Origin: Balneolaceae bacterium
GTDB lineage: Bacteria > Bacteroidota > Rhodothermia > Balneolales > Balneolaceae
Reading direction: 5' to 3'
Assembly (NCBI GenBank): GCA_006969905.1
Contig: CP030887.1
Span: 744,001-808,000, forward strand
DNA length: 64,000 nt
This document shows positions 5,495-58,004 of the stretch, one piece after another. The first letter of the stretch is position 1. Each line of letters opens with the position of its first letter. A program made the translations under genes and the position numbers. The notes under the pieces are model-generated. The model searched no databases and was not told the DNA's origin. It saw only the letters and a program-made list of their open reading frames with translations.

Positions 5495-8124
5495 CTAACC
5501 AACCTACACCTCCAAAACTTGCCAGATGGCTGCTGTCGTTAAGCATTGCCTGGAAGTTCAAAGAAGAAGCTGAGAGTGACCTGGATGAATTGTTTCATAT
5601 CCGTTGCAGCAATTGGGGCTTGCGGTATGCCCGCCGCCTTTACTGGCAAGATGTACTCAGCATTTGGGTTCGTCGCAGCTGGTTTGAAGAATTAGAATTT
5701 ACCCAACTTAATTTTTTCCCAATGTTTAAAAACTATTTAAAAGTCACTTTTCGTGCACTCAAAAAACAGAAGATCTACACCTTTATAAACGTATTCGGCC
5801 TTGCTATCGGCCTTGCTTTTTGCGCCCTCATCTTTTTGTATGTACAGGATGAACTTACCTATGACCGTTTCCATGAAAATAATGATCGAATTTTCCGTAT
5901 TGAACAGCGATACTTTGGTACTGATGGTTCGGTTCGGTTTGATAACCCCAATGGGCCTATCCCTTTAGCGCCAACTCTTAAACAAGAGATACCCGGCGTA
6001 GAAGCCTATACCCGGTTATTTAGACGTACTCATTATGTACAGGTTGATAATGAACCAATCCGAGAATCAGTTCATTATGCCGATGCCGATATTCTTAAAA
6101 TGTTCAGCTTCCCTATTATTTCCGGAAATTCAGAAACTGCGCTTTTAAACGTTAATTCTGTAGTAATTACCGAAGAGATTGCTACTAAGTACTTCGGTAA
6201 AACTAATGTGGTTGGTGAAACACTCAAGATCAGAAAGGAGGAGGATTTTGAGGATTATTTTGTTACTGCTGTTGTTGGAAAAAGCCCAGACAATTCCACG
6301 GTTAAATTCGAACTTCTGATTCCTATACAAGGAGATGCTAGATATCGACCACCTTACTTAGACCGTTGGAACATGAATTTGTACAAAACATTTATCATGC
6401 TGGAAAAACAAGTCGATGCCGCCCAGCTTAAGGAGCCACTTGCTGCCTTTCGTGAACGGCATAATGGTGACTATAACCAGGTACTGAGAGAGCGACATGA
6501 AATACCGGAGAACCAATTAGTTAGCACCTATCATCTGAATCCCTTGCCAGAAATTCACCTAAACTCGGTAAGTGACCCGATGTACTCCTATATCCTTTCG
6601 GGAATTGCTATTGCTATTCTATTAATTGCATGTATCAACTTTATGACACTTTCTATTGGGCGATCATCCAGACGCTCTAAAGAAGTTGGGATGAGAAAAG
6701 TAGTAGGTGCATTCCGTCATCAACTGATGTTTCAGTTCTGGGGCGAAGCCTTTTTGATTTGTGGAATTTCTATGATTTTGGGAGTTCTGCTTGCTGGAGG
6801 GTTTTTGCCTGTTTTCAATGCACTAAGTGGGAAATCCTTAGCATTCAATTATCTGGAAAACTGGGAGACTCTCGTTGCATTGTTTGGGTTTATGGTACTA
6901 ACCGGTTTTATTGCTGGTAGTTATCCTGCAGTAATTTTATCCGGTTTTAAACCCGTTACCACATTGAAGGGTTCATTAAAACTGAGTGGATCAAATTTCT
7001 TCACCAAATCGCTGGTTGCATTGCAGTTTGCTCTTTCTGTGATGTTGATTATCAGTACTCTTGTAATGAAAAATCAGCTTCAATTTATACGCTCACAGGA
7101 TTTAGGGTACAATACAGAGCACGTAGTTTATATTCCTCTAAACCGTTTGGACGGATTAAAGATTGCAAACAATTTTAGAACTGCAATCGGAGGTCATATA
7201 GATATTGTAGATATCACTGCTACGGGAGTAGCTGTAGGATTTAAAGGATCATACGGGTATGGTGTAGAGTATAATGGTGAGAGTATAGATATCAATGTAT
7301 TTACTGTAGAAAGTAACTACATCGACTTTATGGAAATGGAATTAGTAGCAGGGAGAAATTTCAGTCCTGATCTGGCAACAGATACTACAGAATCAGTCAT
7401 AATCACTGAGACTTTTGCTCGTGAATTTGGATTGAATGATCCGATTGGAAAGCAAGTGCCTGCCCTTACTCCGGGAAAGGATACTCATGGAGGCGCCATT
7501 ATTATTGGAATGGTAAAAGATCACTACTTCCAGTCTCTGTACGATGAAATGGATCCGGCATTCTTAACAATGAATCCGGCCTGGGGGCATGGAAATTTAT
7601 TGATTCGAATAAGACCTGAAAATATGCAGGAAACCATTGCGATGATTAAAGATACCTGGAATACGTTTGTGCCTGAGATTCCTCTGAATTACCGCTTTTT
7701 AGATGAAGATATGTACGAGGAATATGCTAACGATGAACGCTGGGCAAACATTGTTAATTACTCCTCACTATTTGCTATTTTTATCGCCTGCCTTGGATTA
7801 TTTGGATTAGTTACTCTCACTGTTTCAAGCCGGATAAAAGAAGTTGGAATCCGTAAAGTATTAGGTGCATCAGTTTTACAGATATCCGGTTTATTCGCCA
7901 AAGACTTTGTGAAGTTGGTTGCTATAGGGGTATTAGTTGCTTCTCCAATAGCCTATTATGCAATGAACCAGTGGCTAAACAACTTTGCCTATCATATTTC
8001 AGTTGGTATCATCCACTTTTTACTTGCAGCTATTATTGTACTTGTTATTGCATTAAGTACTATAAGCTTTCAAGCCATTAAAGCAGGCTTTACAAACCCG
8101 GCTGAAACTCTTTCTAACGAGTAA
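5485..8124 (+). CDS. Large FtsX/MacB-type permease with N-terminal prefix domain
   Basis: About 879 residues. The first ~80 residues form a soluble, charged prefix (PPKLARWLLSL through RRSWFEELEF). After it comes a complete permease of the MacB/FtsX type: one membrane helix near TFINVFGLAIGLAFCALIFLYV, a periplasmic MacB-PCD domain opening with DELTYDRFHENNDRIFRIE, and a four-helix FtsX core. A second periplasmic domain and second FtsX core (EVGIRKVLGA) complete the duplicated architecture. No ATPase gene is adjacent, so it is an orphan permease whose partner must be elsewhere or absent. I chose ATG 5485 because it gives a 10-nt overlap with padR and starts just before the prefix domain; ATG 5473 and TTG 5458 are alternatives. 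The substrate is unknown. Confidence 0.85.
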   Translation: MGLANQPTPPKLARWLLSLSIAWKFKEEAESDLDELFHIRCSNWGLRYARRLYWQDVLSIWVRRSWFEELEFTQLNFFPMFKNYLKVTFRALKKQKIYTFINVFGLAIGLAFCALIFLYVQDELTYDRFHENNDRIFRIEQRYFGTDGSVRFDNPNGPIPLAPTLKQEIPGVEAYTRLFRRTHYVQVDNEPIRESVHYADADILKMFSFPIISGNSETALLNVNSVVITEEIATKYFGKTNVVGETLKIRKEEDFEDYFVTAVVGKSPDNSTVKFELLIPIQGDARYRPPYLDRWNMNLYKTFIMLEKQVDAAQLKEPLAAFRERHNGDYNQVLRERHEIPENQLVSTYHLNPLPEIHLNSVSDPMYSYILSGIAIAILLIACINFMTLSIGRSSRRSKEVGMRKVVGAFRHQLMFQFWGEAFLICGISMILGVLLAGGFLPVFNALSGKSLAFNYLENWETLVALFGFMVLTGFIAGSYPAVILSGFKPVTTLKGSLKLSGSNFFTKSLVALQFALSVMLIISTLVMKNQLQFIRSQDLGYNTEHVVYIPLNRLDGLKIANNFRTAIGGHIDIVDITATGVAVGFKGSYGYGVEYNGESIDINVFTVESNYIDFMEMELVAGRNFSPDLATDTTESVIITETFAREFGLNDPIGKQVPALTPGKDTHGGAIIIGMVKDHYFQSLYDEMDPAFLTMNPAWGHGNLLIRIRPENMQETIAMIKDTWNTFVPEIPLNYRFLDEDMYEEYANDERWANIVNYSSLFAIFIACLGLFGLVTLTVSSRIKEVGIRKVLGASVLQISGLFAKDFVKLVAIGVLVASPIAYYAMNQWLNNFAYHISVGIIHFLLAAIIVLVIALSTISFQAIKAGFTNPAETLSNE

Positions 8125-18620: not shown

Positions 18621-19778
18621 ATGACACATAAAAAAGACTATGCCTCACTTTCCATTCAGGCACATAAAAAAGCACGAGGAAAAATATCTGTAGAATCAAA
18701 ACTACCGCTTGAAACTAAAGACGACCTAAGCATTGCATATACACCCGGAGTGGCAGAACCTTGTAATGAAATTGCCGCTGATAAAAATAAAGTGTACGAT
18801 TATACTGCTAAAGGAAATATGGTGGCTGTGGTAAGTGATGGAACGGCTGTTCTTGGATTGGGCGATATCGGCCCGGAGGCTGCTCTACCTGTAATGGAAG
18901 GAAAAGCTGTGCTTTTTAAGAAATTTGCGGGTGTTGATGGCGTTCCGATTGTGCTGGATACGAAAAATACGGACGAGATTGTAGCCACGGTAAAGGCAAT
19001 AGCACCCACCTTTGGAGGCATTAACCTGGAGGACATTTCAGCCCCGCGTTGTTTTGAAATTGAAGAACGCTTAAAAGAAGAACTGGATATTCCGGTTTTT
19101 CATGATGATCAACATGGTACGGCTATTGTAACCCTGGCAGGCATGTTCAATGCCTGCAAACTAACCGGGAGAAAGCTCAAAGATCTCAAGGTTGTAATTA
19201 ATGGCGCCGGAGCTGCCGGTGTTGCCATTGTGTATTTATTGTTTGAAGCGGGTGTGAAAGAAGTCATCATGTGTGATAGTAAAGGTATCATCCATAAAAA
19301 CAGGGATGACTTAAACACCATCAAAAAGAAAATGTCTGAGCTAACAAATAAAAACCAGGTAACCGGAAGTTTAGTGGATGCGGTTTGTAATTCCGATGTA
19401 TTTATTGGGGTTTCTGCCCCGGGAGTACTTACCCAAGAAATGGTAAAAACTATGGCTCCTGATCCGATTATTTTTGCGATGGCCAATCCTACCCCTGAAA
19501 TTATGCCGGATGAAGCCAGAGAGGCAGGTGCTTATATCATTGCAACCGGTCGATCTGACTTTCCGAATCAAATTAACAATGTGTTGGCTTTTCCAGGGCT
19601 TTTCAGGGGAGCGCTTGATGCAAGAATCAGTAATCTCACAACGGCTATGTTTATCGAAGTAGCTAAAGCGATTGCTGACTCTGTAGAAGACTTAAGTATT
19701 GATAAGATTGTGCCCAGCCCATTTAATAAGAATGTACCTGAAAGAGTAGCCGAGGCTGTTCGTAATTGTAACGTTTAG
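18621..19778 (+). CDS. Malic enzyme (oxaloacetate-decarboxylating), short form
   Basis: This 385-residue enzyme converts malate to pyruvate and CO2 with reduction of NAD or NADP. AYTPGVAEPC near 39-48, FHDDQHGTAIVTLAGM near 160-175 and the Rossmann loop VINGAGAAGVAIV near 193-205 are diagnostic of the bacterial malic enzyme catalytic unit. Many related proteins, such as E. coli MaeB, continue into a phosphotransacetylase-like domain of over 300 residues; this one stops after the malic domains. Cofactor choice is not decided by the sequence as I read it. It is a single gene bounded by terminators on both sides. Confidence 0.94.
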   Translation: MTHKKDYASLSIQAHKKARGKISVESKLPLETKDDLSIAYTPGVAEPCNEIAADKNKVYDYTAKGNMVAVVSDGTAVLGLGDIGPEAALPVMEGKAVLFKKFAGVDGVPIVLDTKNTDEIVATVKAIAPTFGGINLEDISAPRCFEIEERLKEELDIPVFHDDQHGTAIVTLAGMFNACKLTGRKLKDLKVVINGAGAAGVAIVYLLFEAGVKEVIMCDSKGIIHKNRDDLNTIKKKMSELTNKNQVTGSLVDAVCNSDVFIGVSAPGVLTQEMVKTMAPDPIIFAMANPTPEIMPDEAREAGAYIIATGRSDFPNQINNVLAFPGLFRGALDARISNLTTAMFIEVAKAIADSVEDLSIDKIVPSPFNKNVPERVAEAVRNCNV

Positions 19779-19867
19779 AGGCTAAAATCACCTTTAAAAT
19801 CCTGTTAAGTGAAACAGATTACTATAAACTTTTGTCAACTGTTTTACTCTTTTAAGGAAGTACTATT

Positions 19868-19900
19868 TTAATCCAAAACCCTAAAAGGGTTTTGGATTAA
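19868..19900. terminator. Strong bidirectional terminator
   Basis: A perfect 15-bp stem (arms 19868-19882 and 19886-19900, core AATCCAAAACCCT / AGGGTTTTGGATT) with a 3-nt AAA loop lies between the convergent malic enzyme and tricorn-like protease genes, 89 nt after the first stop codon and 7 nt before the second gene's stop. Confidence 0.8.
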
Positions 19901-19906
19901 TGGATG

Positions 19907-22900
19907 TTAGTTTTTTGTTTTTTCCGGGCGTTTCCAGCGAACCGGATCTTTTGGGGTTGGAACCACTGGATATTCATAGTTTTCCAAAAGCTTAAGAGCT
20001 TCTTCTACTGCCCGCTCTAACTGCGGATCTCTGCCGTTAATTACATCTTTTGGCTTTTGCATCACTTCAATATCCGGTGATACACCAATACCTTCCACAT
20101 CCCATTCGCCATCCAGGTTATAGAAACCACCACGCGGTGCTACCATTCTTCCTCCGTCAATAAACCGCGGTGTATCCCAGGTGCCAACCAAACCACCCCA
20201 CGTTTGGGTACCTACAAGCGGCCCAACTCCTCTTTGACGAAATAGGAACGGTAATAAATCTCCCCCTGATCCGGCCCTTTCATTTATAATCATTACCTTC
20301 GGTCCCCAAAGCCCTGCTCCGGGTGAAGTGAAGGGGTAGCGATCTCCAGCCTTGCTATTGAAAAAGCCCTGAATTTCCCGGCTTAAAACATCTACTATAT
20401 AGTCAGCCGCAGATCCACCGCCATTATTTCTTTCATCAATTATGGCTCCCTTTTTATCCTGTTGAGCAAAGTAATACCGGTTAAAATAGGTATAACCACC
20501 AAACCCGGTGTTAGGAACCCAAACATAGGCAAGCTTACCATCCGAAAGCTCATCTACTTTTTTCCTATTCCCTTCAACCCAGTCCCATCTTCTTAAGGCT
20601 GCCTCATTAGAAACAGGTATAGTTGTGATAAGCCTTGCTCCGTTTTTGTTAGGCTTATCATTTACCAACAATTTAACCTGCCTTCCAACAGTGCCTTCAA
20701 AATAGCTGAAAAAATTAACGTCCTCTTTAATTTCATTTCCATTTACTTCCAGGATGTAATCTCCTTCAGAAACATCGATGCCCGGGGTAGCTAATGGCCC
20801 CCGAACTGTTGGGTTCCAGCTTTCGCCAGTGTAAATCTTGTCAATTCTATACGCCCCGTTTTGTAAGGATATATCTGCGCCCAATAAACCTGCAGGAATA
20901 TTTTCCAGGTCCGGGAAATCTCCACCGGAAACATAGGAATGTCCTACCGCTACTTCACCGCTCATAATATCAACTACGTAATTGAGGTCTGATCTGTGCT
21001 TTATATGATTAATCCAAGGAGAATACCATTCGTATACATCATCCCATGGTGCCCCATGAATGTTGTCTACATAGAGAAAATCGCGCATGAATCTCCAGCC
21101 TTCTTTAAAAATCTGATGAGCTTCTGCTTTCGGATCGATCTTTACCCTGAGACCATTTAAAGAAAGTTTTCCATCTCCCGGTTTTTTCTCACCTCCGGTT
21201 GTAGATACGATTCCCCAATTTCCCCGGGCATAATAAAGAAGGCTCTCTTTATCATCCGAAACTACAGCATTATTTACAGTACTTAGATAGGTAATCGCTT
21301 TCTGATCTTTTAAACTATACCGGTGAAGCTGAGTACCTGTATTAGGAATACTTTCGAAATAGAACACATGTCCTTCAGGGCCCGGTAATAAGCCTGTGTA
21401 ATTTCTTTGAGGAATATCTATGCTAATAATTCTATCGGCTATTCCCTCCCTATCAATTTTAACTACAACCTCATCTGATTTTTCCTTTTCTGCTTTGCTC
21501 TCCTCTGATACTTCGTCGTCACTAACAGGAAGAAATGGAGAAGGGTCATCCTTTGAAAGAATAATCATATATAGTGCATGCGTTGTAGGAATATTATAAG
21601 AACTCATATCCAGCCAACCGGAATTTAAACCGTAGTTGGTGCTTGACAAGAAGTACAGGTATTTACCGCTTTCATCCCATACGGGGGTAATAGAGTCAGA
21701 CATTCCATCTGTTAATTGAAGCGTTTGATTGGTTTCAATGTTATGAGCCATAACTACTTTAAACTGGCTGCGAAGCAATTTTACATACGCAATCCATTTT
21801 CCATCGGGAGACCAAACCGGGTTAAGAGTTCTGTTCGGGTGAGCATATCCGTCTGTATCAACCTTTTTGGCTTTGCCTGATTCTATATTGATGCTCCATA
21901 GATTATAATCTGTATCGGTATAGGCAATGTGCTTTCCATCAGGCGACCATGCCGGGCGGAAGTAAAAAGTCGGATCCGGTAACTTAAACACCCGCTTTTC
22001 TTCCATTCCATATTGATCAGAAATTACCAAAGCATATTCCCCGCTTTCATCTGAAAACCAGGCTATTTTTTCTCCATCAGGCGACCAGATTGGGTACCTG
22101 TCAGCAGAACCTGAACTGTTTGTCAGATTTCTCCAGGTTCCGTCTTCTTTAGGTATTGTGAATATCTCACCCCTGTATTCAAACAAAGCTCTTTTTCCTG
22201 TGGGTGAAAGTTGAGGGTTGGTCAGGTTATTTGCCGAAATATCTATCCAGCGCTCCCTGCCCCAGCTCATATCCCCTTTAACTGTGATTTCAAGTTGCCG
22301 GGTTTCTCCGTTTGTGGGATTTAAGTGATGCAAATATCCCCCATACTCATATACAATCAAATCATTTCCGGCATCTATACTTTTTACATCAAAATCTGAA
22401 TGAAAAGTCCATTGTTTTAACTCTTCTGTTTCAGGATCATATGACCAGATGTTACTTGCGTAATCTCTTTCTGATAAGAAGAACACTTTTCCATCATACC
22501 AAACTGGATCAACATGCCTTTCATTATCCGTTCTAGGGGTTTGAACCAGATCGAAAGTTTTAAGATCAACAATCCATATCGGTTGAGCCTGCCCGCCCCT
22601 GTAGTTTCTCCATTCAACATCCCAGAATGTAATGGGGTTGTAGGCTATGTATTTACCATCTCCTGAGATTTCCCCTTCGGCTGCTCTTGGAATGGGTAGC
22701 GCCTCCGGCATTCCGCCTTCGGTTTTTACTTCCCAGATTCTGTTCAAACCTGTTGGATAACCTGTTCTGCCTGACCTGAAAAGAATTGATTTTCCGTCCG
22801 GATTCCAGCCCGTTACAAAATCACCCCCGGGGTGCCATGTCAGACGTACGGGTTCACCTCCATCTACTGAAACCAAATACACATCTGAATTCCCATAATA

Positions 22901-23149
22901 CTGCCCGGTAAATGCTATCGTTTTACCATCGGGTGAAAAATGAGGAAAGGATTCCTGCCCAATATTGCTGGTTAACCTGACTGCATTACCACCATCCCGA
23001 TCAACCCGCCATAAATCGTTAGCGTGTACAAAAACTATATATTTATCTGAAATGGTGGGCTCTCGTAGTAACTGGGTGCCTTGTGCAAAAACATCTTTCA
23101 AAGATGTACAAAATAAAATTAATCCAAAAAGTAGAACTGCCTTTTTCAT
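19907..23149 (-). CDS. Tricorn-like S41 peptidase with beta-propellers, exported
   Basis: At 1080 residues this has the tricorn protease layout. A signal peptide (LLFGLILFCTSLKDVFA) is followed by two propeller regions with many WSPDG/FSPDGK PD40-type strands, an acidic insert near 545-560, and a helical C1 region. A PDZ domain spans roughly 750-850 (EGDYILEVNGNEI), and an S41 catalytic domain contains NERAGSGGD with nucleophile S961 and a GHSY histidine at H737, matching the Ser/His positions of archaeal tricorn. Archaeal tricorn is cytoplasmic; the leader here places the protein in the periplasm, where it would degrade peptides with the other exported peptidases nearby. A good Shine-Dalgarno AGGAG precedes the ATG by 6 nt. 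Confidence 0.93.
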   Translation of the reverse strand: MKKAVLLFGLILFCTSLKDVFAQGTQLLREPTISDKYIVFVHANDLWRVDRDGGNAVRLTSNIGQESFPHFSPDGKTIAFTGQYYGNSDVYLVSVDGGEPVRLTWHPGGDFVTGWNPDGKSILFRSGRTGYPTGLNRIWEVKTEGGMPEALPIPRAAEGEISGDGKYIAYNPITFWDVEWRNYRGGQAQPIWIVDLKTFDLVQTPRTDNERHVDPVWYDGKVFFLSERDYASNIWSYDPETEELKQWTFHSDFDVKSIDAGNDLIVYEYGGYLHHLNPTNGETRQLEITVKGDMSWGRERWIDISANNLTNPQLSPTGKRALFEYRGEIFTIPKEDGTWRNLTNSSGSADRYPIWSPDGEKIAWFSDESGEYALVISDQYGMEEKRVFKLPDPTFYFRPAWSPDGKHIAYTDTDYNLWSINIESGKAKKVDTDGYAHPNRTLNPVWSPDGKWIAYVKLLRSQFKVVMAHNIETNQTLQLTDGMSDSITPVWDESGKYLYFLSSTNYGLNSGWLDMSSYNIPTTHALYMIILSKDDPSPFLPVSDDEVSEESKAEKEKSDEVVVKIDREGIADRIISIDIPQRNYTGLLPGPEGHVFYFESIPNTGTQLHRYSLKDQKAITYLSTVNNAVVSDDKESLLYYARGNWGIVSTTGGEKKPGDGKLSLNGLRVKIDPKAEAHQIFKEGWRFMRDFLYVDNIHGAPWDDVYEWYSPWINHIKHRSDLNYVVDIMSGEVAVGHSYVSGGDFPDLENIPAGLLGADISLQNGAYRIDKIYTGESWNPTVRGPLATPGIDVSEGDYILEVNGNEIKEDVNFFSYFEGTVGRQVKLLVNDKPNKNGARLITTIPVSNEAALRRWDWVEGNRKKVDELSDGKLAYVWVPNTGFGGYTYFNRYYFAQQDKKGAIIDERNNGGGSAADYIVDVLSREIQGFFNSKAGDRYPFTSPGAGLWGPKVMIINERAGSGGDLLPFLFRQRGVGPLVGTQTWGGLVGTWDTPRFIDGGRMVAPRGGFYNLDGEWDVEGIGVSPDIEVMQKPKDVINGRDPQLERAVEEALKLLENYEYPVVPTPKDPVRWKRPEKTKN

Positions 23150-23249
23150 CGAAACTCCTGTTAGTTAGGCTTCAATGTAAAAAAAGAAGAAGAGATGTTA
23201 GAATGAGACCTTTATTTTATCCAATATTTAACAAATTATATATCGAACC

Positions 23250-23816
23250 TTAGAATAAGCTTCTTTGCTCCTGGTCTCTCTTTTGAGCCTGTTCAATAGT
23301 CGGGTCTTCTTTTATCTCAAAGTTATTAAGCATTTCGGGCATAAATCGCTTTTCATAAATTCTTCTCGCAATTCCATTCAATGCCCGCTCTCCCCTGGGG
23401 GTGATGCGTAGAAACCCACCCTCATCTTCCTGGAAGAAACCAAATGCACGAAGATCATTTACAATAAGATAGGCCAGTTTCTCAGTAACTCCGGAGCTTC
23501 GCTCAATTACCTCCCGGTGTGGAGGTTCCTCCTCATGCATATAAACTTTACCCAGTACATTTAGCTCGGCCTCGGTCAATGGAAAACCTTCTGATCCTTT
23601 CGTCAGTAAGTTATCCCAGGCTTTTTGAGAATAGCATAAACCAAACCACCATTTTCCTTCTTTAAGTAGCTCCTGGCTTATAGTACATGCAAAATATTCC
23701 CCGGCAGGCGCACGCCTTGGTTCACCCCGTGTTCGAAACATATTCACCATGGTAGCCAAATCCAGCTCGTGAATATTAGGTGGGTATTTGAAGTGAAAAC
23801 TACTTCGTTTTTGCAT
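23250..23816 (-). CDS. Uncharacterised 188-residue protein
   Basis: I do not recognise the family. The protein has no signal peptide or membrane segment. It starts with a basic, aromatic stretch (RSSFHFKYPPNIHELDLATMV). The centre, roughly 80-150, has helix-turn-helix-like periodicity (FPLTEAELNVLGKVY, then VIERSSGVTEKLAYLIVNDLRAFGFF) and ends in a wing-like LRITPRGERALNGI; this resembles a winged-helix domain, which is an inference from pattern only. The C-terminus is charged. The codon usage looks like the neighbours and the reading frame is well filled, so it is a real gene. An imperfect palindrome lies just upstream of its start, consistent with autoregulation if it binds DNA. Confidence 0.7.
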   Translation of the reverse strand: MQKRSSFHFKYPPNIHELDLATMVNMFRTRGEPRRAPAGEYFACTISQELLKEGKWWFGLCYSQKAWDNLLTKGSEGFPLTEAELNVLGKVYMHEEEPPHREVIERSSGVTEKLAYLIVNDLRAFGFFQEDEGGFLRITPRGERALNGIARRIYEKRFMPEMLNNFEIKEDPTIEQAQKRDQEQRSLF

Positions 23817-23820
23817 GAAA

Positions 23821-23849
23821 GTTAGATTTGTATCGCGTAACGATCTAAC
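23821..23849. promoter_or_regulatory. Inverted repeat upstream of the 188-residue protein gene
   Basis: GTTAGAT at 23821-23827 and ATCTAAC at 23843-23849 form a 7-bp inverted repeat with a 15-nt centre, ending 4 nt before the start codon of the leftward gene. It could be an operator or a leader hairpin hiding the ribosome binding site; no U tract follows, so it is not a terminator. Confidence 0.35.
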
Positions 23850-23916
23850 ACAAAATACCTTAAGTGGGGGGTGCTGTCAACTACCAACTTGTAAGAAATC
23901 TTTATGATCCTAAAGT

Positions 23917-25458
23917 TTATCTTTTTTGAAAGTGATAACGAAGAATTATTTGTGGATGCAGGTTAACGATAACTTTGCGGCTCTCAAATAAATAGTTATC
24001 CCGAATACCTGTTCCGGACCCGATTTGGTATTCAATATTTCCCAGCCAATCTTTCCAGTGCAGGCCCAGATAATATTGTATATCCTGTGTACGGCCTACT
24101 TCGTCAAACAACCTTAAATAATAGGCATCATCGTTATAACGGGTTCTGAAAAATTCGAAATTAATTGATTGCTTTCTGTTCCTGTAGGAAATATTTACCG
24201 CATGGAAGCTTGACCCCGGGCCTATTGCCGCACCCATTACCTGGCCATTATTTGTATAACCTTGCGTTATTTGGCTATGCTGATATAACGAACCGCTAGA
24301 TCGTACTCTGCCGGTTTCCCAAACAGCCAGGTTGGCATTTTCGAATATGAAGTCTATTGCCTTTTGATCCTGGAGTTTAAATTGTTTGACAAATCCCCAG
24401 ACATAACCTGCATTATGCTCGGGCTGAGTTAAAAAATCAGGCAGGTTTGATGCAAAATCTCCTCTTATCCATTCCATGTAAATTTTAAAATCATCCCCTG
24501 ATGATATCCACTCCAGGCCAAATGAAAGGGTTTGATCTGCAGATTCATTCACACTTCCGTCAGAAGCCTGTTGGCTAGTCCTTAGAAAATCAGTGAAAAG
24601 AATAAAATACTCGCTCCAGCCGTCCCTGTCCTTGTCTTGTATTTGCATTGTACGTTGCAGAGTAAAAGATAAACCAGGGAAAAATTTAGGAGCATACCCA
24701 AATACAAAGCCATTAAAAATTTTCCTGTCATCGTCCGGATCACTATTGAAATAGTCTGATTCTTGAGTAATACCAAATATCCATTGCATTTCAAACAAGC
24801 CTGCTTTTGTTTGCCAGGGAGTATTGCTTCCTACCCTTAAATTGGGAAATCCGTTTGCATGGTTACTCATCAAAGCCTGGTTAAAAATAGCTGGGCCCCA
24901 AAAAGTGTTTGCGGTTCCCAGGCTAACCCTGAACTTAGGATGGGAATATGCAATCTCGGATTGCCCCAGATAAAGCTCGCTAAAGCTCCCATTTCCATAT
25001 TGCATTACATAATCAATACCCGTAGTAAATCTGTTTTGAAACTCGGGGTTCGAGCCGAAATCACTTCTTAAATTGTAATTCTTATTCTCGTTGTAATTCA
25101 AAACCGGGGCGAATGTATATTCAAATTTTCCGAGCCGCCCCTGTACACCTAACGAAAAAGATTGATTGAACCCTCTTCCCTGCCATAGATATCCATCATT
25201 AAAACCATGAGCAAACTTGCTGTTGTAGGAGCTGTGCAAAAAAACGGAAAGTATTTCCAAATAATCTGCTGCTGTCTCATCCTGATAATCAATAACAGAT
25301 CTAAAGGCTATACTGCTACTATCGTAGGAGGTATTCGCAAGCTGGCTTTGCGCGTCAAAACGATTGTAGATTATTGACTGAGACTTGGCAAAATCTGGTA
25401 TAGCAAACAGCATCAATAACAATAAAACTGATTTTGCGTCCTTCATTTTATAACTCAT
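23917..25458 (-). CDS. Wzi-like capsule-assembly outer-membrane beta-barrel
   Basis: This 513-residue protein has a leader (SVLLLLMLFAIPDFAKS) and then alternating amphipathic strands rich in aromatic residues, ending in a terminal strand LHPQIILRYHFQK typical of outer-membrane barrels. Conserved-looking elements such as GFNDGYLWQGRGFNQSFSLG, SLGTANTFWGPAIFNQALMS and WSEYFILFTDFL match my memory of the Wzi/capsule-assembly family, which attaches surface polysaccharide to the outer membrane. No capsule biosynthesis genes are nearby, so the partner polysaccharide is unknown. The ABC exporter gene lies 91 nt upstream on the same strand. Confidence 0.75.
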   Translation of the reverse strand: MSYKMKDAKSVLLLLMLFAIPDFAKSQSIIYNRFDAQSQLANTSYDSSSIAFRSVIDYQDETAADYLEILSVFLHSSYNSKFAHGFNDGYLWQGRGFNQSFSLGVQGRLGKFEYTFAPVLNYNENKNYNLRSDFGSNPEFQNRFTTGIDYVMQYGNGSFSELYLGQSEIAYSHPKFRVSLGTANTFWGPAIFNQALMSNHANGFPNLRVGSNTPWQTKAGLFEMQWIFGITQESDYFNSDPDDDRKIFNGFVFGYAPKFFPGLSFTLQRTMQIQDKDRDGWSEYFILFTDFLRTSQQASDGSVNESADQTLSFGLEWISSGDDFKIYMEWIRGDFASNLPDFLTQPEHNAGYVWGFVKQFKLQDQKAIDFIFENANLAVWETGRVRSSGSLYQHSQITQGYTNNGQVMGAAIGPGSSFHAVNISYRNRKQSINFEFFRTRYNDDAYYLRLFDEVGRTQDIQYYLGLHWKDWLGNIEYQIGSGTGIRDNYLFESRKVIVNLHPQIILRYHFQKR

Positions 25459-25549
25459 TGTAGATTTTTATTATCGTGTATTGTCCAGTGGAAAAGTAGC
25501 CATTTTCACTTTTGTAATATCATTCTTTATTAAGAACACTGAATATGAA

Positions 25550-54307: not shown

Positions 54308-55534
54308 ATGGAATATACAGGCTTTATCGCGCGACGATATCTTTTTTCTAAGAAGCACATTTCACTAATATCAACACTTACTTTTATAAGTATTACGGGG
54401 GTTACTATTGGTACGGCTTTGTTGATCGTCGTGCTGTCGGTTTTTAACGGCTTCTTTGATGTAATAAAAGGTTTTCTCCTTTCTTATGATCCGGATATAA
54501 GAATAGAAAGTGCTGAAGCCAGAACATTTGATCAAAACAATGACTGGTTAGAAGAATTAAACTCTATCCCTGAAGTACGTGTCATCTCTCCTTACGTTGT
54601 TGGCAAAGCGCTGTTGACACACACCGATGATGAGAGTAAAGTTGTAGAAGTTAAAGGGGTAAACAGGGAAAAGTTTTTTCAGCTTATTGATATTGAACAA
54701 AGTATTACCAATGGCATCTTTGATGTGTCTGTGAGAAATGGGCGGCCGGGACTTATTGTACATGATCAACTCCGTTCTGATTTAGGCCTTACTATTGGCG
54801 AACAAGTTGCCCTGTTAAGTGCTGCAGGCATGAAGAATGCACTCACCCAGGTTACTACTCCACGGCTTTACCGGTTTGAAACCAGGGGAACATACGATCT
54901 TCAGCAAATCTCCGGGGGACCGCAGGTTTATGTCGACTTGGTTGCAGCCCAACGTTTATTTCGCACTCGCAGTAATCTTTCCGGTGTAGATATTAAGCTT
55001 TCAGATAGTGAACAAGCCGAGCATATAAAAGCCGTTTTGCAGGAGCGCCTGGGGCCAAGCTATAAAATCTCTACCTGGTATGATCTTCAAAAACCGCTAT
55101 ACGATGTCATGTATCTTGAGAAGTGGGGCGCATACCTAATCCTCATGATTATAATTATTGTAGCCGTGCTTAATATACTGGCATCGTTAATGATGATTGT
55201 TATCCAGAAAAGGCGTGATGTTGGAATCCTGATTTCAATGGGCTATACCCGGTCTGCGATAAAAAAAATCTTCAGAAAACAGGGGCTTTATATAGGTTTA
55301 ATTGGTTGCGCACTTGGTGGAGGAATTGGTTTGTTACTTACCTGGCTGCAAAAAACTTATGGTATCATAAAATTGTCTTCAGCTTTTATTATAAGCTCCT
55401 ACCCGGTTGAGGTACGGATACTAGATGTAAGTATTATACTTGTCGGAAGCCTCATTCTTTGTGTGGCCGCAAGCTGGTACCCTGCAAGCAGGGCGTCACA
55501 AGTTCAGCCAGCGGATGCTATCCGTTTTGAGTAA
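54308..55534 (+). CDS. LolC/LolE-type ABC transporter permease
   Basis: This 408-residue permease has the LolC/E architecture: an N-terminal helix (YLFSKKHISLISTLTFISITGVTIGTALLIVVLSVFNGFFD), a periplasmic MacB-like domain (VRVISPYVVGKALLTH) and three helices at the C-terminus (YLILMIIIIVAVLNILASLMMIVI; IGLIGCALGGGIGLLL; VSIILVGSLILCVAASWYPA) flanking the RRDVGILISMGYT loop. It is expected to help extract lipoproteins from the inner membrane with an ATPase partner not seen here. The 95-nt divergent gap shared with glgB contains the promoters. Confidence 0.88.
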   Translation: MEYTGFIARRYLFSKKHISLISTLTFISITGVTIGTALLIVVLSVFNGFFDVIKGFLLSYDPDIRIESAEARTFDQNNDWLEELNSIPEVRVISPYVVGKALLTHTDDESKVVEVKGVNREKFFQLIDIEQSITNGIFDVSVRNGRPGLIVHDQLRSDLGLTIGEQVALLSAAGMKNALTQVTTPRLYRFETRGTYDLQQISGGPQVYVDLVAAQRLFRTRSNLSGVDIKLSDSEQAEHIKAVLQERLGPSYKISTWYDLQKPLYDVMYLEKWGAYLILMIIIIVAVLNILASLMMIVIQKRRDVGILISMGYTRSAIKKIFRKQGLYIGLIGCALGGGIGLLLTWLQKTYGIIKLSSAFIISSYPVEVRILDVSIILVGSLILCVAASWYPASRASQVQPADAIRFE

Positions 55535-55537
55535 TAC

Positions 55538-55549
55538 TATCACTCGTTA
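55538..55549 (+). repeat. 12-bp direct repeat, left copy
   Basis: TATCACTCGTTA is repeated exactly at 56329-56340, where it includes the last codons of the leftward murF gene. The pair brackets the AT-rich HhH-GPD gene. Confidence 0.7.
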
Positions 55550-55571
55550 GTAGCAAACCAGAAAAACAACT

Positions 55572-56318
55572 ATGAAAATTTCTTGGAGTATAACGGAGTC
55601 AGATATTCAAAAAGTTAAAACCATGCTGACTGAAAATGATAATCCCTTTTTGCATACCAGGAGACTAAGAAATGTTCAAAAGCAAAACATTGTAATTAAC
55701 AAAGATGCGATAATTAAGACTATGATTATGTGTCTTTTAACCTCACAACAAAGATCGGGACCCAATTCAAAAATTGGACAATTTCTGAGAAAAGCACCAT
55801 TTCCAATTGTCACAGAAACAATTGAAAATACTGAGAATATTGAGAGGTTTGTAAGAATAACATTAAAAGAAAATGAACTGACTAGGTATATAAATAGGAT
55901 TAGTTCTTTCTTTGCTCTGAATCTTCAAAAAATGCAAAATGAAAATTGGTCAATTATCGATGACCTAAACGGACTATTTCTCGAAAATTCTAAAGATAAA
56001 GAGAGAGAAATTTCTGACAAATTAGATAATGATCTTAAAGGATTTGGTCCAAAACAATCAAGAAATTTTCTCCAGGCACTCGGGCTGACCAAATACGAGA
56101 TCCCAATTGACTCAAGAATTATTAGTTGGTTAAATGACTTTGGATTCCCTGTTGCATTAACATCTTCTCCCCTCGGAGACAAAGGGTACTACCATTTTGT
56201 ATCAGACGGAATTCAAGAACTTTGTGAAAAAGCAGGAACATATCCTTGTTTATTGGATGCAGCAATATTTTCTAGTTTTGATAATGGAGAATGGACACAA
56301 GAAAACGCAATATTCTGA
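55572..56318 (+). CDS. HhH-GPD DNA glycosylase (8-oxoguanine glycosylase/lyase-like)
   Basis: This 248-residue protein contains a helix-hairpin-helix-GPD module: LKGFGPK at 155-161 followed by QSRNFLQALGL and IPIDSRIISWL. K161 and D180 occupy the positions of the catalytic lysine and aspartate of OGG1-type bifunctional glycosylase/lyases. The N-terminal half, including MCLLTSQQRSGPNSKIGQFL, resembles the glycosylase core helices. It should excise an oxidised or otherwise damaged base and nick the strand. The gene is visibly richer in A+T than its neighbours and is bracketed by an exact 12-bp direct repeat, features of acquisition by insertion. No mobile-element gene is associated. Confidence 0.8.
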   Translation: MKISWSITESDIQKVKTMLTENDNPFLHTRRLRNVQKQNIVINKDAIIKTMIMCLLTSQQRSGPNSKIGQFLRKAPFPIVTETIENTENIERFVRITLKENELTRYINRISSFFALNLQKMQNENWSIIDDLNGLFLENSKDKEREISDKLDNDLKGFGPKQSRNFLQALGLTKYEIPIDSRIISWLNDFGFPVALTSSPLGDKGYYHFVSDGIQELCEKAGTYPCLLDAAIFSSFDNGEWTQENAIF

Positions 56319-56328
56319 TTAAAAAACT

Positions 56329-56340
56329 TATCACTCGTTA
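56329..56340 (+). repeat. 12-bp direct repeat, right copy (end of murF)
   Basis: The copy TATCACTCGTTA contains the murF stop codon and last codons on the minus strand. The insert between the two copies, 55550-56328, holds only the glycosylase gene and short flanks. Confidence 0.7.
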
Positions 56341-58004
56341 TACACATCGGGTAAATCATTTTCATATAAAACCACATCTCCCGGGGTAGCGTACTCTTTG
56401 AGGATATCATTTGCTTCAAATAAAGTATCTACGATAGAAACTTTTTCCTCCTGATCCTCAGTTTTTAGAATTCCTTCAAGTATCGGTTTTGATCTTTCCC
56501 TGCCCACCAAAATAATTTTATCTAAATGGGCTTTTCCGATGGCTTCTCCAAAATTCCTGTTTTCCTCTTCCTCAATTTCTCCCAATTCAACCATTCCCGG
56601 GGTAATAATAATGCGCCTTCCTGATTTGAACTGGCTCAGTATTTCAACCGCATTTTTTGCCCCAACGGGATTTGAGTTAAAAGCATCATCAATAATGGTG
56701 AGATCACCTATTTTTTTAAGTTCCAGCCTGTGCTCCACGGGCTCAATTGACTTGGCAGCCAGCGCCATGGTTTTAGCTCTTATTCCAAAGTGATGGGCAA
56801 CCCCAACTGCCAGCAATATATTCTGAACGTTATGCGCCCCCAGCAGTTTTGATTGAAAAGTTTCTGCCTCGTTTTCTATTTGAACTTTAAATTCGGACCC
56901 GGAATTATTATAGGAAATATTGTTTGCTCTAATTTCTCCGTTTTCCAACCCTACCAAAATTCTCGAAATATTTATACGGTCTTGCCCCATTTTTGAAACC
57001 CTCGGATCATCTGCATTCAAAACAGCAACCCCTCCTGGTTTCAGTGTGTCAACAATAACTCCTTTTTCTCTGGCAATAACATCCTGGCTTCCGAATGTCT
57101 CCAAATGCGCAAATCCTACATTCGATACTACAGATACGTCCGGGGTAGCTATCTCACAAAGCTCTTTGATATTGCCCGGGTACCTGGCCCCCATTTCAAG
57201 GATTAGAATCTGGTGGTGGGATTGCAGATCATTGTTAATCACTTTACAAATACCCATCGGGGTATTATAGCTTCCAGGAGTAGTACAAACACTATATCGT
57301 TCTTTTAACAGGTCACGAATCATAAATTTAGTGCTCGTTTTTCCGTAACTGCCCGTAATTGCCACTACCTTTAATTGTGGCATAGAAGCTAGTTTTCTGC
57401 GCGCCTGCTTTTTAAACCCTTCCTGGATTCGGTTTTCTATCGGCTTTGTTAAAGCTCCTGCAAATAGCACAAAAAAGGGAATCATAATAGCCCCGAACAC
57501 CCAACCAAAAACCAGTAAAATCACATCAAAACTAAGAAAAGAGCTTTGGGCATTTATGAGGCGTATCGCAGGGCTATATGCGGCGTAACTAAAAAACACA
57601 GGTAAAAACAAAGCAGCAAAGCCAAAAGGAATCAGCAATCTTTTCACCCTGTTTGTTACCACAAGTGGCTTTTTCACTTTCTCCGGCTTGTAGCGCTTCA
57701 CCGGGGTCAGCCAAAACAAAGCATAGCTGAATAAAGTTAATGCAATTGTTGCATCAGTTGGCCAAACCGGAAACCAGTCTTCCGGTAGTATGAATAAAAA
57801 AACAAACAGGTTAAATATGCCCAGTTCAACAGGAATTATTTTCCCATCCCAGTTTGATTTTATCCATGCCCAAAACTCATTGTTGTTATACCCTACCTGT
57901 TGATATGCTCTTAGAAAAAACTTTGACCTGTACCAAAAATATCGCAGCATCAAGGCACAAAATAATATGGAAGAAATATCAAGTATTAAGTGATACAGAT
58001 TCAA
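56331..58004 (-). CDS. murF: Membrane-anchored MurF-type Mur ligase
   Basis: This 557-residue protein begins with ~205 residues containing about five hydrophobic segments (near 3-22, 62-75, 86-101, 122-140 and 160-185), followed by a complete Mur ligase: P-loop ITGSYGKTST at 216-225, GARYPGNIKEL, NVGFAHLETFGS, LNADDPRV, HNVQNILLAVGVA, VEHRLELKKIGDLTIIDDAFNSNP. These match MurF, which adds D-Ala-D-Ala to the UDP-MurNAc-tripeptide. Classical MurF is cytosolic and about 450 residues; this one adds a membrane domain. The start is a TTG at 58004, favoured because it completes the first helix; an ATG at 57950 would truncate it. Confidence 0.85.
   Translation of the reverse strand: MNLYHLILDISSILFCALMLRYFWYRSKFFLRAYQQVGYNNNEFWAWIKSNWDGKIIPVELGIFNLFVFLFILPEDWFPVWPTDATIALTLFSYALFWLTPVKRYKPEKVKKPLVVTNRVKRLLIPFGFAALFLPVFFSYAAYSPAIRLINAQSSFLSFDVILLVFGWVFGAIMIPFFVLFAGALTKPIENRIQEGFKKQARRKLASMPQLKVVAITGSYGKTSTKFMIRDLLKERYSVCTTPGSYNTPMGICKVINNDLQSHHQILILEMGARYPGNIKELCEIATPDVSVVSNVGFAHLETFGSQDVIAREKGVIVDTLKPGGVAVLNADDPRVSKMGQDRINISRILVGLENGEIRANNISYNNSGSEFKVQIENEAETFQSKLLGAHNVQNILLAVGVAHHFGIRAKTMALAAKSIEPVEHRLELKKIGDLTIIDDAFNSNPVGAKNAVEILSQFKSGRRIIITPGMVELGEIEEEENRNFGEAIGKAHLDKIILVGRERSKPILEGILKTEDQEEKVSIVDTLFEANDILKEYATPGDVVLYENDLPDVYNE

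Follow-up and report, generated by a model that had tools for sequence, protein, structure and literature searches.

The stretch of 64,000 nucleotides analysed here (the window, C1:744001-808000 of the genome) carries a single-gene insertion at the 3′ end of murF that, judging from its sequence, is probably of integron-cassette origin. The inserted gene encodes an Ogg2-like DNA glycosylase and is bounded by two copies of a 12-bp direct repeat. It appears fairly likely that this cassette was inserted off-array by the integron integrase IntI at an attG-like site, in an event in which its attC site would have been lost and 6-9 bp of the target duplicated.

The repeat, TATCACTCGTTA, is present at two positions (Table 1), the only ones in the complete 3,489,855-base genome, and its copies match over exactly 12 bp, no further. 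The left copy begins 3 nt past the stop codon of a lolC-type permease gene, and the right copy coincides with the end of murF (...TAT AAC GAG TGA TA on the minus strand). Pairs of 12-bp repeats spaced 600-1000 bp apart number five in the window, so the spacing alone is commonplace; this pair is meaningful because its copies fill both short gaps flanking one gene, and because that gene is missing in relatives whose flanking genes adjoin. The insert and its gene have a GC content of 33%, compared with 35% in the host's cassette array and 41% in the flanks and the window. The insert, which holds one gene only, has no terminal inverted repeats on either side and no transposase, and we therefore rejected an insertion sequence or transposon. 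All of this agrees with a preliminary description made from the sequence alone, which had reported the exact repeat, a right copy formed by the murF end, a left copy between the lolC-type stop and the glycosylase gene, a single A+T-rich HhH-GPD gene between them, and no transposase or terminal inverted repeat.

Table 1. Features of the insertion and its neighbours (positions in the window; ^ marks the crossover position)
Feature	Position	Strand	Basis
lolC/E-type permease gene, left neighbour	54308..55534	+	TIGR02212 273 bits (below the 362-bit cut-off); FtsX and MacB_PCD over cut-off
Left TATCACTCGTTA copy	55538..55549	+	Exact match; proposed crossover after G at 55546 (CACTCG^TTAG)
Cassette-like leader TTAGTAGCAAACCAGAAAAACAACT	55547..55571	+	26 nt from G to ATG, compared with 17-30 nt in host array cassettes
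Ogg2-like HhH-GPD DNA glycosylase gene, 248 aa	55572..56318	+	K161 and D180 conserved
Putative cassette tail TTAAAAAACT, stopping at the expected R″ start; attC absent	56319..56328	+	Comparison with the G323 tail and array spacing
Right TATCACTCGTTA copy, overlapping the murF 3′ end; G^TT crossover position 56337	56329..56340	+	Exact match
murF, right neighbour, convergent; longest ORF	56331..58004	-	TIGR01143 255 bits (below the 289-bit cut-off); Mur_ligase_M and Mur_ligase_C over cut-off

We compared the lolC-murF junction across relatives. Of the seven other species compared within the genus, six have the two genes convergent, with no glycosylase gene between them and with stop codons that lie 0 (G005), 3 (G002), 8 (G006), 10 (G003 and G001) or 12 nt (G007) apart; in the seventh, murF is missing from the 1500 nt next to the lolC-type gene. 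When the window flanks are joined at the repeat, the sequence becomes gagtaa-TACTA-[TCACTCGTTATACACATC], with a reconstructed gap of 5 nt. Across 147 genomes of the genus, family, order and class, the glycosylase gene occurs in the host's own genome and is absent from the 146 relatives; in a set of 394 genomes spread across the phylum, it is present in 4. Gene adjacency in the relatives, together with the absence of the glycosylase, indicates that the lolC-type gene and murF were formerly neighbours and that the unit now between them is an insertion, as the preliminary description had supposed. Among the relatives compared, same-genus and wider and all of other species than the host's, none carries the gene at this locus with diverged flanks and no empty site shows a left copy that predates the gene. 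The nearest of them are ~67% identical in LolC, and the exact sequence of the target or empty site is therefore unobserved in this set.

The inserted gene probably encodes an active Ogg2-like 8-oxoguanine DNA glycosylase/AP lyase, a prediction based on sequence and a structural model. Its family scores are below cut-off for both PF22175 (Ogg-HhH; 25.8 vs 27 bits) and NF002305 (31 vs 183 bits), and for this reason we describe the protein as Ogg2-like only. The model (pLDDT 90.7) has an HhH-GPD fold, and its best Foldseek matches, each with a probability of 1.00, are SsOgg from Sulfolobus (3fhg), MjOgg from Methanocaldococcus (3knt) and Tm1821 from Thermotoga (3n0u). Like these Ogg2 enzymes, it combines the fold with an aligned lysine and following aspartate; K161 of the helix-hairpin-helix and D180 do not vary across 11 homologues, and they align with the corresponding Lys and Asp of 9o00. 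It differs from the Ogg2 structures in its longer chain and shares 14-20% identity with them. No PADLOC match was obtained, and we rejected a defence-system gene. Given that the gene lies 37 nt downstream of the lolC-type stop and on the same strand, it is probably expressed by read-through.

Homologues of this glycosylase are found in cassettes with attC-type sites elsewhere. The closest are 61-71% identical to the window protein and include those of Salegentibacter (L003 and L004), Cerina (L006) and a Bacteroidales bin (L007); at L003, L006 and L007, the leader is complementary to an R″-like sequence shortly past the stop codon. Genome G323 carries two 932-bp units with this gene, 99.8% identical and ~16 kb apart, inside a large array of attC-like repeats. 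These units start at G^TTGCC and end at AACG^TTGTA, and the first adjoins a tyrosine recombinase gene. The attC-like repeats of this array (L076/L077) are 130-160 nt long, and the recombinase, of 378 aa, matches the TIGR02249 model only in pieces (188 of 265 bits). The genomes of G323, L003 and L007 have no integrase over the IntI cut-off, which suggests that the donor system may differ from the host IntI; G323, and possibly also L003, L004 and L007, may represent a Bacteroidota integron type with a different integrase. Left out of the cassette comparison were L005/L062, which have no clear cassette edges, and L008-L013, which are distant or incomplete.

The preliminary description had also named, as a check, flanking duplications of the same gene at other loci. 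The 11 homologous loci contain no exact flanking repeat of 10 nt or longer, and the only matches, at L004 and L007, are A-rich chance repeats. Separately, the L007 glycosylase cassette lies between two 97% identical 3′ ends of a Crp/Fnr-type gene (L007:5377-5678 and 6890-7194), each starting at G^TTATTCCCCCC; here a chromosomal gene end is perhaps another insertion site. The genes of Rhodovulum and Tropicimonas (L010, L011 and L045) are near-identical to one another, 44% identical to the window protein, embedded in common near flanks and found in the viral contig collection too, and probably belong to another mobile element bearing this gene family.

An integron integrase is available in the host. 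A chromosomal integron (C1:987000-1001543; L057/L058), ~200 kb from the insertion, comprises a full-length intI of 320 aa (C1:1000581-1001543; TIGR02249 426 bits vs a cut-off of 265) and, to its left, an array of mostly one-gene cassettes. The array has at least 13 attC repeats of about 80-125 nt each, ending in GCCGCTTAAACGC(C/T)GGGTCG^TTA(T/G) or a near variant, and its cassette leaders, GTTANNNNNN, are complementary to the R″ of their own end over ~10 nt or more, with at most one or two mismatches. IntI is also common among the host's relatives, scoring over cut-off in 42 of 89. Array-type attC ends occur outside the array at C1:2600914 (an exact match), 1597989 and 22666, so the array is not the only place in this genome where cassettes land. 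The first of these sites lies within a two-cassette insertion with the left junction ATTATG^TTATAGAGCC, preceded by a gene that we take, by eye, to be phytoene-desaturase-like. The surrounding off-array loci span C1:2598500-2604500 (L094), 1594500-1600500 (L095) and 19500-25500 (L096), and L095 shows an apparent truncated attC upstream.

Both edges of the insert in the window resemble those of a cassette. At the left edge, CACTCG^TTAGTAGC, a G^TT boundary is followed by a short leader and a single ORF, with a distance from boundary to start codon inside the range of the array cassettes (Table 1); the leader sequence, GTTAGTA, departs from GTTRRRY. On the right, the tail TGATTAAAAAACT is similar to that of G323, TGAATAAAAAGCC. 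The repeat starts 10 nt past the glycosylase stop, at a distance typical of R″ in cassettes: in the array, the R″ AAC mostly lies 3-21 nt past the stop. Random 12-mers end in GTT, GTTN or GTTNN at a rate of ~5%, and the G^TTA edge alone is thus modest, suggestive evidence; the cassette reading is carried by both edges jointly, along with the host and family context.

What the insert lacks is attC. We found no array-type attC pattern (R″-L″...L′-R′) in the window, no stable single-strand fold at the right end (z 0.39) and no R″ complementary to the leader there, and on these grounds we rejected a hidden or decayed attC at this position. Where attC would be expected, there are instead nine bases of the target, TATCACTCG, which run up to the G^TT crossover. 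Missing its attC, the insert fails the canonical definition of a cassette, and we classify it as a cassette derivative that lacks attC; for the same reason it is probably immobile. We prefer to read the 12-bp repeat as 6-9 bp of target that was duplicated, together with a TTA common to leader and target at the G^TT crossover, with TAT microhomology on the other side possibly contributing as well. A 12-bp target duplication, as originally put forward, would then hold only for part of the repeat. Insertion with partial duplication of the target is supported, but the inserted unit is not anonymous, given its cassette family, the host's IntI and array, and its cassette edges.

An exact repeat bounding the whole insert is also the classical picture of target-site duplication, and the absence of attC also fits a generic insertion: a linear fragment captured by end joining at a staggered double-strand break, or a unit mobilised in trans by some unknown transposase, either having a 12-bp target-site duplication and a coincidental match to cassette edges. 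We regard this as unlikely. It comes without terminal inverted repeats or a transposase, and it leaves unexplained why a G^TTA left edge sits at cassette distance, why the right edge falls at the expected R″ start, and why the gene is a cassette elsewhere while the host family is rich in IntI. Alternatively, IntI might have inserted the cassette cleanly, with an intact attC that later decayed or was deleted. The array attC ends (GGGTCGTTA) include TCG^TTA, and 6 of the 12 repeat bases could accordingly be an attC-end remnant; the TATCAC of the right copy would then be a chance match, expected about once in 4096 cases, or once in 64 if TAT came from an R″ such as CTTATAAC. In addition, the base before TCG is C, as in G003 (ACTCGTTATA), and not the G of attC, and we consider this sequence of events very unlikely.

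Duplication of a conserved gene's 3′ end is also typical of phage-type and conjugative elements, and the genome encodes several other tyrosine recombinases. One of these might have integrated a small circle at the murF end, using the 12 bp as its attachment core. The core is found nowhere else in the genome, however, and the gene's close homologues move as cassettes. A phage or plasmid vector was rejected on the matches obtained: the gene is in no phage record, its only two plasmid matches are distant (35-41% identity), and its relatives among viral_contigs are distant too (41-44%). Integration by such a recombinase thus seems highly improbable.

Under the IntI-mediated reading, the target in its single-copy form would have been TACTATCACTCGTTATACAC, with TATCACTCGTTATAC as the candidate IntI site. 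Recombination of the cassette with the attG-like site TATCACTCG^TTATAC would yield the left junction ...CTCG|TTAGTAGC. At the right junction, either recombination or template switching at the R″ start, where attC has its base, would join the tail ...AAAAAACTTAT to the target's CACTCG^TTATAC, removing attC and duplicating 6-9 bp of target, as in deltaattI1-11 cassettes. The comparisons made here support the first of these steps; the second is inferred. Two routes could lead to this product. In one, a staggered cut by IntI, at G^TT on the bottom strand and 6-9 nt further left on the top strand, would after fill-in leave CACTCG (or up to TATCACTCG) on both sides, which with the shared TTA makes the 12-bp repeat. 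In the other, replication would switch template at the base of the folded attC, guided by TAT microhomology, with an identical outcome.

The insertion links two oddities that have been described separately, the landing of cassettes off the integron and the replacement of attC by part of the target sequence, and does so in a natural host of a chromosomal integron. If general, this would give cassette genes a way of turning into ordinary, fixed genes of the chromosome, with a signature that can be searched for: a single gene, absent from relatives, with short flanking repeats ending in G^TT. More speculatively, and as a tentative proposal only, sedentary chromosomal integrons might permanently donate genes to the core chromosome through a staggered double-strand IntI route at attG-like sites, which would leave a cassette without attC and a duplicated target overlap of 6-9 bp. 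If true, such insertions would escape attC-based integron finders, and counts of integron-derived genes in core genomes would be too low.

Cassettes that have entered bacterial genomes at sites other than integrons are termed attG insertions and generally retain attC at their right end. They are reportedly the subject of work by Loot et al. in Nature Microbiology in 2024 (doi 10.1038/s41564-023-01548-y), which is cited in PMC12901181 and PMC11023631. The insert is alike in lying at a G^TT-type site outside an integron (CACTCG^TTATAC at the murF 3′ end, empty in relatives) in an IntI-bearing host; it differs in being without attC and in showing a duplicated target. PMC12901181 describes deltaattI cassettes from class 1 and 2 integrons (Partridge 2000/2009), in which the last 11 bp of attI stand in place of attC, and proposes that they arose when the target's left box recombined with the R″ of attC, perhaps through a double-strand route. 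On that account, deltaattI1-11 and the insert share an ORF followed by a truncated target copy (11 bp in deltaattI1-11) that ends at G^TT, with no attC and with short direct repeats flanking the gene; here TATCACTCG lies on both sides and G^TTA ends both copies. Compared with the deltaattI cassettes described there, the copied piece is shorter, at 9 bp or less, and its source is not attI but the end of an ordinary chromosomal gene, murF, 200 kb from intI, in a host with a sedentary chromosomal integron rather than a clinical host of mobile integrons. We regard the insert as a variant of what integrons are already known to do, not as an element of a new kind.
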